This document shows positions 41,957-58,282 of a stretch of 64,000 nt of DNA, piece by piece. This DNA comes from Geothrix sp. 21YS21S-4 (lineage in GTDB: Bacteria; Acidobacteriota; Holophagae; Holophagales; Holophagaceae). Each line of letters opens with the position of its first letter. Within the stretch, counting starts at the first letter, position 1. The position numbers and the translations under genes are program-made. Location: positions 992,001-1,056,000 of the forward strand of contig NZ_CP132719.1 in the NCBI RefSeq assembly GCF_030845995.1, read 5' to 3'. The notes under the pieces were generated by a model. It saw only the letters and a program-made list of their open reading frames with translations, was not told the origin of the DNA and searched no databases.

Positions 41957-42030
41957 AACCGCAGATGCCGCAGATCGCGCAGATGAAAACCGGCCCTGCT
42001 TCGTCTGCGTCATCTGCGACATCTGCGGTT
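41957..42030. repeat. Inverted repeat of AACCGC / CGCAGATG arms between carA and carB
   Basis: Left arm 41957-41985 and right arm 42002-42030, 29 nt each, with 25 of 29 positions complementary and a 16-nt loop. The arms begin AACCGCAGATG and repeat CGCAGATGN with 9-bp period. The same arms bound the GxxExxY element at 57841-58273. This looks like a copy without cargo. It could form a long hairpin in the carAB mRNA. Confidence 0.9.
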
Positions 42031-56684: not shown

Positions 56685-57833
56685 ATGCGATCCGCAGTCA
56701 TCGTCGAAGCCAAGCGCACCCCCATCGGCCGGGGCGTCAAGGGCGCCTACGCCGCCACCCGCCCCGAGCAGCTCGGCGCGGTCGTCATCGAGGCCATCAA
56801 GCCCCTGCTGAAGGACTGGTCCGGGCTGGAGGACGTCCTGGTGGGCTGCGCCATGCCCGAGGGCGAACAGGGCATGAACATGGCCCGCATGATCAGCTTC
56901 CGCGCCGGCCTTCCCCTCACCGCCGGCGCCGCCACCGTCAACCGCTTCTGCGGCAGCAGCCAGGAAACGATGCTCATGGCCGCCCGCGCCATCCTGGCGA
57001 ACCAGGGCGACCTGTTCCTCGCGGGCGGCGTGGAGAGCATGTCCAAGGTGCCCATGATGGGCTTCAATCCCAGCGTGGATCCCTTCATCAGCGAGACCTA
57101 TCCCGAGGCCTACTGCTCCATGGGGATCACGGCGGAGAACCTCGCCAAGGAATACAAGATCAGCCGCAAGGATCAGGACGAGTTCGCCTACCGAAGCCAC
57201 CAGAAGGCCGCCGCCGCGTGGAAGGCCGGCAAGTTCGAGAAAGAAGTCGTCCGCTTCGAGACCCAGGGCCTGGACGGCAAGCCCGTCACCCTGCAGCAGG
57301 ACGAGTGCGTCCGCGCCGACACCACCGTGGAGAAGCTGGGCGAGCTGAAGCCCGCGTTCCTCGCGGAGGGGAACGTCACCGCCGGCAACAGCTCGCCCAT
57401 CACCGACGGCGCCGCGTTCCTGCTGGTGATGGAAGAGGGTCTGGCGAAATCCCTGGGTCTGAAGCCCCGCGCCCGCATCCTGGGCGGCGCCGTGGCGGGG
57501 GTGGAGCCCGACCGGATGGGCATCGGCCCCGTTCCCGCCGTGAAGAAGGTGCTGGACCGCTTCGGCCTGAAGCTCGACCAGATCGACGCCATCGAGCTGA
57601 ACGAGGCCTTCGCCGCCCAGAGCCTCGCCGTCATCCGCGAAGGCGGCTACGATCCGGCCAAGGTGAACGCCTGGGGTGGCGCCATCGCCGTGGGCCACCC
57701 CCTCGGCGCCAGCGGCGCGCGCATCCTGACGACCCTCCTCCACCGCCTCGAGACCGACGGCGGCAAGTACGGCCTCGCCACCATGTGCATCGGCGGCGGC
57801 CAGGGGATCGCGTCCATCATCGAGAAGATCTGA
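56685..57833 (+). CDS. fadA: Acetyl-CoA C-acyltransferase (3-ketoacyl-CoA thiolase)
   Basis: 382 residues. Nucleophile Cys89 in NRFCGSSQE, catalytic His in GHPLGASGAR and Cys in CIGGGQG near the end. It cleaves 3-ketoacyl-CoA in beta-oxidation. GGAGG precedes ATG 56685. Its TGA lies within 8 nt of the element boundary; before insertion the fadN ATG would have been only 6 nt after this stop. Confidence 0.95.
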   Translation: MRSAVIVEAKRTPIGRGVKGAYAATRPEQLGAVVIEAIKPLLKDWSGLEDVLVGCAMPEGEQGMNMARMISFRAGLPLTAGAATVNRFCGSSQETMLMAARAILANQGDLFLAGGVESMSKVPMMGFNPSVDPFISETYPEAYCSMGITAENLAKEYKISRKDQDEFAYRSHQKAAAAWKAGKFEKEVVRFETQGLDGKPVTLQQDECVRADTTVEKLGELKPAFLAEGNVTAGNSSPITDGAAFLLVMEEGLAKSLGLKPRARILGGAVAGVEPDRMGIGPVPAVKKVLDRFGLKLDQIDAIELNEAFAAQSLAVIREGGYDPAKVNAWGGAIAVGHPLGASGARILTTLLHRLETDGGKYGLATMCIGGGQGIASIIEKI

Positions 57834-57840
57834 GTTTTTA
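57832..57840. repeat. Left copy of a 9-bp direct repeat (candidate target-site duplication)
   Basis: GAGTTTTTA immediately before the element; it includes the last two bases of the fadA stop codon. The identical sequence is at 58274-58282. Confidence 0.7.
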
Positions 57841-58273
57841 ACCGCAGATGGCGCAGATGACGCAGATGGATTCTGGAGATCCTCGCACCTACGCCATTCT
57901 CGGCGCGGCGATGGAAGTCCATCGCGTGCTGGGACCGGGCTTCCTGGAGGCTGTCTACCAGGAAGCCATGGCCCTGGAGTTCGAGGCTCGAAGGATCCCT
58001 TTCCGGCGCGAGGTCGAGTTGCCGGTGCTCTATAAAGGCAAGGCGCTCTGCACCACTTATCGCGCCGATTTCATCTGTTTTGAAAGCGTGATCATCGAGT
58101 TGAAAGCCATCACAAGACTGGGGCCCAACGAAGAGGCCCAAATACTCAATTACCTCCGGGCCACCGGATACGAGGTAGGGCTGTTAGTCAACTTCGCGGA
58201 ACCCCGCCTTGCCTATAAGCGATTCGCGAATTCCAAATCTGCGTCATCTGCGGCATCTGCGGTTTCAAATTAG
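57841..58273 (+). mobile_element. 433-bp TIR element carrying a GxxExxY gene
   Basis: Bounded by GAGTTTTTA direct repeats. Left arm 57840-57868 and right arm 58236-58264 are 29-nt inverted repeats (27 of 29 matching) of AACCGCAGATG type with CGCAGATGN units of 9 bp. A further 9 nt (TCAAATTAG) separates the right arm from the right direct repeat. The only gene inside is a GxxExxY protein; no transposase. Joining the flanks restores a compact fadA-fadN junction. Mobility is inferred from structure, not shown. Confidence 0.7.
57866..58273 (+). CDS. GxxExxY protein (PD-(D/E)XK nuclease-fold family)
   Basis: 135 residues from ATG 57866; in-frame ATGs at 57848 and 57857 come from the repeat arm itself. 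Gly25-x2-Glu28-x2-Tyr31 (GFLEAVY) is the name-giving motif. Asp68 in YRADF and Glu78-x-Lys80 in IIELKAI form a plausible PD-(D/E)XK catalytic set. The core domain ends near residue 120 (AYKRF); the last 15 residues, [13 protein letters not shown]-like, are a translation of the right arm. The TAG stop is the last three bases of the element. The family is widespread, often multicopy, and of unknown function. Confidence 0.88.
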
Positions 58274-58282
58274 GAGTTTTTA
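58274..58282. repeat. Right copy of the 9-bp direct repeat
   Basis: GAGTTTTTA, identical to 57832-57840. Its last base is the A of the fadN ATG, and its GAG completes the TTAGGAG Shine-Dalgarno whose first part lies in the element. Confidence 0.7.

Follow-up and report, generated by a model that had tools for sequence, protein, structure and literature searches.

A GxxExxY gene within unit-array inverted arms: a putative REP-like mobile element with a predicted Cas4-like nuclease fold

Here, we report a small element between fadA and fadN of Geothrix sp. 21YS21S-4 that is probably one gene-bearing copy of a REP-like family of mobile elements, with a Cas4-like PD-(D/E)XK nuclease as its putative own enzyme. 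The element lies in the window, i.e., the whole stretch of 64,000 nt that was analysed (contig NZ_CP132719.1, positions 992,001 to 1,056,000), in which all coordinates below are counted. The first-pass annotation of this DNA had pictured the nuclease-fold protein and its repeats as one minimal mobile unit, and this picture is supported by the recurrence of the pair across phyla and in the genus, by the co-variation of arms and protein, by empty sites and by gene-less copies; of what it had observed, the gene with its inverted arms stands and the reading of 9-bp flanking repeats as a target duplication does not. GxxExxY proteins are widespread and their function is not known, and unit-array hairpins are scattered and their origin is not known; linking the two gives each of them a role that can be tested. 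If the pair acts as a tiny mobile element, it would point to an undescribed way of DNA movement in bacteria.

The fadA-fadN element and its protein

The open reading frame (57848-58273, plus strand, 141 aa) is located between fadA, whose stop ends at 57833, and fadN, which starts at 58282. It is framed by a left arm at 57840-57867 (plus strand, AACCGCAGATGGCGCAGATGACGCAGAT) and an inverted right arm at 58237-58264 (minus strand), both read from the letters and detected by the arm search. The inverted repeat had been described as a nearly perfect 29-nt TIR matching at 27 of 29 positions; we find 28-nt arms with one mismatch, and 27/29 with one further base, but each arm is an array of three 9-nt units (the CGCAGAT core plus 2 nt) rather than one 29-nt unit. 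The inverted-repeat score is 25.5, a value reached by four of 4000 genus windows, a pool that contains the window itself and other real elements, so that some of these four may overlap elements. The left arm contains the first ATGs of the gene, and the C-terminal tail is translated from the right arm, as annotated, whereas the annotated length of 433 bp with TAG as the last codon has to be revised: bounded by its arms, the element is 57840-58264, or 425 bp, and the TAG stop therefore falls 7-9 nt beyond the right arm.

The gene was correctly assigned to the GxxExxY family, with matches above the curated cut-offs of PF13366 (E 3e-40, 137.6 bits versus 22) and TIGR04256 (E 1e-42, 145 bits versus 35), and the assignment also draws on residue alignment and predicted structure. 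It is the sole gene between the arms; the element has no transposase gene, in agreement with the annotation. It appears to be under purifying selection, judging from dN/dS values of 0.07-0.08 against two orthologues at a dS of about 1.8, which is close to saturation.

The candidate PD-(D/E)XK set consists of E34, D74 and E84-x-K86, plus Q98xxxY102. The three catalytic candidates named earlier (Asp68, Glu78 and Lys80) are D74, E84 and K86 when counted from the first ATG; E34, Y37, D74, E84 and K86 are invariant among 76 homologous sequences, and Q98 and Y102 are conserved in at least 90%. An AF2 model (pLDDT 87.9) gave as its best Foldseek match, among those listed, 4ic1 (SSO0001, E 2.8e-4), followed by weaker matches, from E 2e-3, to the LHK and lambda exonucleases; in VIA, 4ic1 reached Z 9.3 and was the only one of the 998 chains counted with Z of at least 8. 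Both lists are incomplete by design and families outside them may fit as well. We take SSO0001 to be a Cas4 protein, and the QxxxY motif presumably ties the window protein to the Cas4/RecB/lambda-exonuclease branch. The GxxExxY protein is predicted from the model to adopt a Cas4/lambda-exonuclease-like PD-(D/E)XK fold, nearest to Cas4 among the matches listed.

A sequence search of the PDB gave only weak matches (best, T7 endonuclease I, E 0.41) and another such search none; the window protein had no match at 0.01 among the PADLOC anti-phage defence models and none in PHROGs. A single-protein query of viral contigs, reaching close relatives only, found no relative, and Rfam gave one sub-threshold chance match near the element.

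Arms and GxxExxY genes across phyla and in the genus

The joint recurrence of GxxExxY genes and inverted arms across phyla and in the genus is supported by sequence comparison. Across phyla, the arms exceeded the 99th percentile of an in-locus null at 65 of 80 loci (the best 80 of 580 confirmed candidates), with 15 named phyla among them, and terminal inverted repeats are present there as at the window element. The arms typically hold about three units of 8-10 nt with the core CRCNNA(T/G). The 15 loci below the threshold include two arm-less Bacteroidota loci (L111 and L124), and three others of that phylum (L108, L112 and L118) lie above the cut, yet show no clear three-unit arrays. In the genus, 146 summed matches left 125 loci scored in one test and 123 in the other, where identical genes were counted once: 105 of the 125 exceeded 13.5, the cut taken from the cross-phylum null, and 87 exceeded 20, while 103 of the 123 distinct loci were above 14.5, the 99th percentile of the genus null (4000 windows). 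The control nuclease family PF02021 had arms at one of 23 testable loci (of 30, the rest being at contig edges). Within the Geothrix genome itself there are six GxxExxY paralogues, the window gene included, each with its own different inverted arms. The expectation that the other five would be bounded by both arms and direct repeats held for the arms; the direct repeats flanking these copies reach no more than 3-5 nt.

In sequence, the arms go with the protein clade and not with the phylum. The seventh base of the core needs five changes on the protein tree (89 of 90 proteins; L097, with no intact motif, was left out), whereas shuffled labels need 21.0 on average (no fewer than 15 in 400 shuffles), or 19.7 on average and at least 14 if the shuffling is done within phyla; the labels cover 64 loci, all but one of them on the tree, and ten, from this genome and its congeners, were assigned by reading and not by pattern. 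Mantel correlations between arms and proteins are 0.516 for 93 genus loci and 0.415 for 64 cross-phylum loci, no permutation of 999 being as high, and the correlation persists under 60% protein identity. Such co-variation could stem from joint inheritance of gene and arms without recognition. Perfect pairing of the stem was considered as a constraint and rejected: the inter-unit spacers match between left and right at 61%, versus 50% when different elements that share a core are compared, as determined on 57 of 158 elements. The cores in this comparison were picked by a pattern that dictates positions 1, 3 and 6 and admits only A or G at position 2 and only T or G at position 7.

Empty sites, flanking repeats and gene-less copies

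Two insertions have empty sites in relatives, neither with a target duplication. One is a 471-bp element in genome G033, where the same two genes are 0-1 nt apart in all seven other genomes searched. The other is a gene-less hairpin of 74 bp in the window (41957-42030, no strand assigned) between carA- and carB-like genes, with CGCAGAT arms as in the window element; it is missing in four of six relatives examined, and in those four the two genes overlap. At the fadA-fadN junction, the first-pass annotation had looked to relatives for empty sites and regarded a junction occupied in all of them as evidence against mobility. Among the best 30 of 50 fadN loci (29 congeners and this genome), 16 junctions carry neither gene nor arms, and the states require 12 changes by parsimony on the fadN tree, with the decayed L049 counted as a CACAGAT gene state. 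There is no clean boundary at this junction because the intergenic sequence differs between states. The distance from arm to flanking gene is not constant (0 to about 17 nt), and junctions carry non-homologous extra nucleotides; at the three studied closely, the insert is at or near a stop codon and the neighbouring genes are on one strand. A search for plasmid relatives gave eight records, none above 70% identity.

The identical 9-bp repeats GAGTTTTTA at the outer borders are present as annotated, on the plus strand at 57832-57840 and 58274-58282. They are probably a chance match and not a target duplication because the orthologous element of the congener G017 differs, its left flank being TGATTATTA and its right flank GAGTTTTTTA with no GAGTTTTTA pair, because the right copy takes in the GGAG that is the likely Shine-Dalgarno sequence of fadN, and because there is no general excess of direct repeats elsewhere. 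The left copy starts at the fadA stop TGA, continues over a T-run and ends with the first A of the arm, and the right one comprises the likely GGAG and the fadN leader and ends in the A of its ATG. Among 102 genus elements the window element alone has a direct repeat of at least 8 nt, where chance would give about one. In 72 elements (54 cross-phylum and 18 genus; among the 18 are the window element, two overlapping detections and a spurious one), direct repeats were near the shuffled null when the slack was limited to 6 nt, a setting too narrow to detect the repeat of the window element. When the slack was set to 2, 6 or 14 nt, no general excess emerged for the 102 elements of the genus, the 64 from across phyla or the 13 without a gene, with two mild exceptions, i.e., 4-nt repeats at 6 nt of slack in the genus (27% versus 18%) and 5-nt repeats at 14 nt of slack across phyla (33% versus 18%), the latter not seen in the genus. 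A constant target-site duplication is rejected, as repeats stay near the shuffled null and the empty sites show none.

Gene-less arm copies are also present in this genome. Of its 41 matches to the window element, one is a full copy and 40 have the length of an arm. Across 41 genomes, counted after subtraction of gene arms and with kinship ignored in the statistics, the number of gene-less copies is higher in genomes that have a gene with arms of the same type. CRCAGAT copies have a median of 19 in the 11 genomes with the matching gene versus 2 in the 30 without (p 0.0014), and CRCCAAG copies 29 in 13 genomes versus 5.5 in 28 (p 0.0003). The cross-check of CRCCAAG copies against presence of the CRCAGAT gene is also low (p 0.0095), and many copies occur in genomes where no matching gene was found (G034, 59; G009, 24; G030, 23; G032, 20), so relatedness or general element load contributes. 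G006, typed as bearing a CRCAGAT gene, has zero copies; copy number per genome is patchy, from 0 to 59.

Putative mechanism, rival explanations and known systems

It is plausible that the protein acts on the arms, and we infer that the nuclease may be their mover. On arms that are folded as single strands or form a cruciform, the GxxExxY protein would recognise the unit cores and would cut or trim there; the element would then be copied into gene ends, aided by host replication or repair, and gene-less copies could be moved in trans by a nuclease sharing their arms. More tentatively, and we would put this a little short of probable, the elements may form an unrecognised class of bacterial transposable elements, in which a Cas4-like PD-(D/E)XK nuclease alone spreads unit-array hairpins, needing no HUH, DDE, serine or tyrosine recombinase and leaving no target duplication, with the four-helix-bundle IVP and its 7-nt units as a sister class; the two together could explain some heptamer-nonamer intergenic repeats that have long puzzled observers in many phyla.

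The hairpins could instead owe their spread to replication or repair by the host (through template switching or single-strand annealing) or to an enzyme that has escaped recognition, with the GxxExxY gene as cargo or parasite kept for, e.g., defence or self-maintenance. Copy-rich genomes where no matching gene was found, junctions with non-homologous extra nucleotides and no target duplication, and a second gene family (IVP) in the same kind of architecture would all agree with this, but arm type follows protein clade across phyla, copy number tracks the matching gene for two arm types, and 105 of 125 genus loci lie within arms above the 13.5 cut; we consider it rather unlikely. Quite unlikely, in our judgement, is that the arms are regulatory or structural sites (RNase III-cut RNA hairpins, terminators or DNA sites of nucleoid proteins) that the protein binds for autoregulation, spread long ago and now immobile. 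Presence and absence between sister species and copy numbers from 0 to 59 fit mobile elements better, even though the insertion at or near a stop codon between one-strand neighbours at three junctions speaks for such sites, as do the class-2 sites of Geobacter metallireducens, which in PMC2700814 are mostly opposite-strand pairs of three tandem repeats with a reverse complement containing CACGGAGA.

A common MITE or IS derivative that duplicates its target site and is served by a DDE transposase in trans would account for the TIR-like ends and for a 9-bp direct repeat that occurs at the window copy alone; with no general direct-repeat excess, no conservation of that repeat in the orthologous element of G017, and a single full-length match in the genome beside 40 arm-length ones, it seems very improbable. 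MITEs are similar in their short non-autonomous copies and inverted ends, whereas the elements here show no target duplication, and no related IS was found in the searches made (DDE transposases were outside their scope). Movement of REP/REPIN elements by a RAYT (HUH, Y1) transposase would produce the same population pattern, in which short hairpin copies accompany a gene placed between two repeats. Yet the Y1_Tnp profile (PF01797) found no HUH transposase in 36 of the 41 genomes; copy numbers do not track Y1_Tnp (p 0.25 and 0.45), and G017, G031, G034 and G036 hold 29 to 59 CRCAGAT matches without it. With Y1_Tnp in five genomes only, RAYT is rejected as the mover and this explanation retains next to no probability.

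The preferred reading, i.e., a REP-like family with its own nuclease, has close parallels. A RAYT gene is flanked by its REP repeats, and dispersed short inverted gene-less copies are present here as in REPtrons or RAYT-REPIN systems. The likeness is that of an enzyme gene tied to short palindromic repeats in many copies; according to PMC8266576, enzyme groups and such repeats co-evolved. The enzyme differs, being PD-(D/E)XK and Cas4-like here and HUH in RAYT, most of the genomes here having given no HUH match, and so does the arm, an array of about three 8-10-nt units and not the one palindrome of a REP. If the nuclease moves the arms, this would be a REPIN-like model with an unrelated enzyme, and a Cas4-like enzyme would join the short list of DNA-spreading chemistries in bacteria. 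Solved relatives of the Cas4/RecB/lambda-exonuclease branch act in CRISPR, recombination or repair; the predicted fold and the positions of D, ExK and QxxxY are shared with them, whereas the GxxExxY protein has only 141 aa and is tied to repeat arms.

Our literature search found no paper linking GxxExxY genes to such arms. In Geobacter metallireducens, classes 1-3 of PMC2700814 are mostly opposite-strand pairs of three to five tandem 7-9-nt units, class 2 having three tandem TCTCCGTS[Y] repeats per array with the CACGGAGA unit that also occurs in the present analysis; the passages on these classes interpret the paired arrays as binding sites of IHF/HU-type global regulators and mention neither GxxExxY nor mobility. 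Repeats filed as regulator sites may deserve a second reading.

In PMC4990558, intervening sequences of 23S rRNA have one ORF between inverted termini and are called selfish, their mobility being only hypothesised. Those with S23p/IVP (TIGR02436) are likewise small elements with a single ORF and inverted termini, but lie in 23S rRNA and encode a four-helix bundle, whereas the window gene is PF13366; a TIGR02436 profile search of this genome gave no match. In a test of 28 of 30 IVP loci (the rest being at contig edges; placement in rRNA was not part of the check), IVP genes have arms on the same plan as GxxExxY genes, with 7-nt in place of 8-10-nt units. This parallel suggests that small proteins binding nucleic acids may, as a general design, maintain populations of repeats, every protein having a unit length of its own.

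The window element and its protein

Between fadA and fadN (interval 57834-58281; both names are taken over from the initial sequence reading) lies a 141-residue ORF at 57848-58273 of the GxxExxY family (TIGR04256, 145 bits; PF13366, 137.6 bits). Inverted arms flank it at 57840-57867 (left) and 58237-58264 (right). The first-pass annotation had likewise proposed a single such gene between inverted repeats. Each arm carries the core CGCAGAT three times at a 9-nt spacing; the left arm holds the first in-frame ATGs of the ORF, and the C-terminal tail of 11 residues is the translated right arm. The gene is under purifying selection, with dN/dS of 0.07-0.08 against two orthologues and dS about 1.8.

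The predicted protein model has a mean pLDDT of 87.9 and is confidently folded from about residue 11 to 130, with residues 1-7 and 137-141 below 50. G31, E34, Y37, D74, E84, K86 and F116 are among the residues invariant in 76 homologues, and Q98 and Y102 are conserved in at least 90% of them; QxxxY is a mark of the Cas4/lambda-exonuclease branch. A sequence search of the PDB with the window protein gave nothing firm. Among the solved structures listed, the one closest to the predicted fold is SSO0001 (4ic1), a Cas4 protein, with a Foldseek E of 2.8e-4 and a VIA Z of 9.3 (100 residues, 21% identity). Alkaline and lambda exonucleases rank second in Foldseek, and the other VIA rows have Z below 8, several restriction-type nucleases among them.

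Arms and gene-less copies follow the gene

GxxExxY genes sit between inverted arms well beyond the window. GTDB genomes were scanned with a six-paralogue alignment, and the best 80 of 580 confirmed candidates were scored by the highest-scoring inverted match of one gene flank to the other, with 4800 windows of the same loci as null. The arm score exceeded the 99th percentile in 65/80 loci, the 99.9th in 38 and the null maximum in 6; 15 named phyla and two unassigned records contribute these 65, and the full set of 80 spans 20 named phyla. Among the 15 loci below the cut, some (L096, L099, L152) have unit-like arms by eye, L080 starts close to a contig end, and others, L111 and L124 among them, have no unit-like arms. 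These last two and L108, L112 and L118, all from Bacteroidota, either lack arms or show no clear array of three units, and such arm-poor loci are possibly domesticated. Stops or a frameshift break the domain in 5/80 loci (L097, L103, L113, L123, L129), as expected of decaying elements, assembly errors being possible too. Within the genus, 103/123 distinct genes are above its own 99th percentile of 14.5 (105/125 loci above 13.5, 87/125 above 20), and its 99.9th percentile is 24.5 with a null pool that contains real elements. In the control family PF02021, which we take to be of the PD-(D/E)XK fold, 1/23 Acidobacteriota loci is above the cut.

The common arm grammar is a core CRCNNA(T/G), usually in three units, with a unit step of 9-10 in T-type and mostly 8-9 in G-type arms (57/158 elements, those with three units in both arms), and lag identity is highest at 9 (0.44); some genus arms, e.g., the ACAGGATT and ATCCCC types, lie outside it. 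Arms co-vary with the protein. On a tree of 89 domains with the arm-encoded ends trimmed off, built from few columns and with half the inner branches open, the T/G base changes 5 times against a shuffled mean of 21.0 (minimum 15 of 400), or of 19.7 when labels are shuffled inside phyla (minimum 14). For the remaining three variable positions of the core, 11, 14 and 13 changes compare with shuffled means of 18.4, 23.0 and 20.9, and the observed counts were equalled in 2, 0 and 1 of 400 within-phylum shuffles. A Mantel test of protein identity against arm similarity, which needs no core pattern, gave r 0.516 (93 genus loci) and 0.415 (64 cross-phylum loci), and in neither case did any of 999 permutations come as high; for pairs below 60% identity, r was 0.222 and 0.290, respectively.

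The window element is not a lone element. Its genome (3.08 Mb) has six PF13366 genes, all bounded by their own inverted arms when the flanks are read by eye, with cores CGCAGAT, CACCGAT/CACTGAT, AGCGGAG, CACGGAT, CACCAAG and CGCAGAG/CACAGAG. A two-unit CGCAGAT pattern with at most 2 mismatches gave 119 matches there vs 18 for the reversed control; of 18 sites read by eye, 13 are short arm pairs without a gene (hairpins) and 5 are single or unclear arms. One such hairpin lies in the window at 41957-42030. Elsewhere in this genome, at C1:900404-904829, three hairpins with CGCAGAT arms, spaced at about 2.2 kb, adjoin similar gene starts and ends, which suggests copying along with a tandem gene duplication.

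Across 41 genomes of the genus, counts of the three-unit CRCAGAT pattern range from 0 to 59 per genome (reversed control 0 throughout) and those of CRCCAAG from 0 to 71 (control 0). With four matches subtracted per matching gene, the median of CRCAGAT copies is 19 with a CRCAGAT-type gene (n=11) vs 2 without (n=30, p 0.0014), and that of CRCCAAG copies 29 (n=13) vs 5.5 (n=28, p 0.0003); stricter gene typing without subtraction gave p 0.0004 and 0.0006. In the cross-check over the 41 genomes, CRCAGAT copies do not track CRCCAAG genes (p 0.24), but CRCCAAG copies somewhat track CRCAGAT genes (p 0.0095), therefore relatedness or element load contributes. Joint inheritance of gene and arms accounts for part of the arm-protein co-variation; alone, it does not account for gene-less copies that follow the gene.

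Empty sites and borders

Elements are present or absent between species. Empty sites, which the first-pass annotation had asked relatives to provide, were found in 16 of 30 fadA-fadN junctions (29 congeners and the window's genome); five have the gene (2 CGCAGAT, 3 CACAGAT), one a decayed element, and eight have gene-less hairpins belonging to three further types. By parsimony, the junction state changes 12 times on the fadN tree, 7 of these changes being between empty and filled, and supported sister pairs differ in state, many other branches being weak; intergenic allele exchange between species would also yield this pattern. The decayed element (L049, congener G009) has a CACAGAT left arm, a right end resembling the CGCAGAT type, and a truncated gene interrupted by another hairpin, of CACAAAG type. 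In 13/16 empty junctions (L050-L074) a short inverted repeat TCCAACC...GGTTGGA, with TCCGACC instead in three, surrounds the fadN leader, a possible target or mRNA hairpin.

A clean case is the single GxxExxY element of congener G033 (471 bp, CACGAAG arms), with an empty site in 7/7 relatives searched, the flanking genes being 1 nt apart in six and directly adjacent in its close relative G002; compared with these sites, the insertion has no target duplication and 9 extra nt on the right. The hairpin at 41957-42030 sits between what we take from sequence to be carA and carB, which overlap without a hairpin in G015, G019, G025 and G033; a hairpin of this kind is also present in G009, and the one in G024 has CACAGAT arms. 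At the three junctions (fadA-fadN, the G033 site and carA-carB) the inserts lie at or just past a stop codon, with variable extra nucleotides.

The 9-bp direct repeats had been read as a target duplication, a reading we abandon. Although GAGTTTTTA is present at both outer borders of the window element, the right copy is GGAG plus the T-run in front of the start codon of fadN, and in G017 the corresponding borders of the orthologous element read TGATTATTA vs GAGTTTTTTA. The first scan (72 elements, 6 nt slack, too little for the window's own repeat) found repeats of at least 5 nt in 6.9% vs 6.7% in the null and none of 7 nt or longer. With 14 nt slack, 102 genus elements gave repeats of at least 5 nt in 18.6% vs 19.4% shuffled, the window's repeat being the only one of at least 8 nt (expected 0.8% per element); 13 gene-less hairpins had none longer than 6, and 64 cross-phylum elements showed a mild 5 nt excess (33% vs 18%) and one 9-nt repeat, at L084. 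The expectation that other copies in the window's genome share both features thus stood for the arms, present in all five, and fell for the direct repeats, 3-5 nt at most. We treat the window's repeat as a probable chance match.

Possible mover and related systems

The sequence comparisons establish the gene-arm architecture, the arm-protein co-variation and the presence or absence of elements between species. We infer, with moderate confidence, that the most likely mechanism is a GxxExxY enzyme that would act on its own arms. The element works like a REPtron (an HUH transposase with its short palindromic repeats), but the defining HUH enzyme is missing from it, and therefore it is not classed as one. 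Y1 (HUH) transposases occur in 5/41 genus genomes and do not predict copy numbers, therefore a RAYT is unlikely as the general mover.

Among papers listed for REPIN/RAYT and nucleases, or for MITE/REP and either a nuclease fold or RecB, no title or abstract start connects GxxExxY genes with such repeats. In the literature searched, 'PDDEXK_3' did not occur in the papers listed, six arm sequences were in no paper, and the passages naming 'GxxExxY' do not deal with repeats, most subscription papers and preprints lying outside its coverage; an earlier report may exist elsewhere. In Geobacter metallireducens, arrays paired on opposite strands, among them three tandem TCTCCGTS[Y] repeats, have been interpreted as global-regulator sites (PMC2700814).

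A sister architecture with a different unit length is seen at Acidobacteriota loci of IVP (TIGR02436; L155-L184), which we take to be the S23p of 23S rRNA intervening sequences: 27/28 testable loci are above the in-locus 99th percentile, and the inverted arms are arrays built of 7-nt units, with a lag identity of 0.62 at 7 and 0.58 at 14. Earlier papers term these intervening sequences selfish, with mobility hypothesised only (PMC4990558), and describe heptamer arrays of unexplained origin (PMC4679880). Five Y1_Tnp genes of equal score in the window's genome (C1: 1121467, 1771272, 2192230, 2445343, 2777555) are probably a recent IS200-type expansion.
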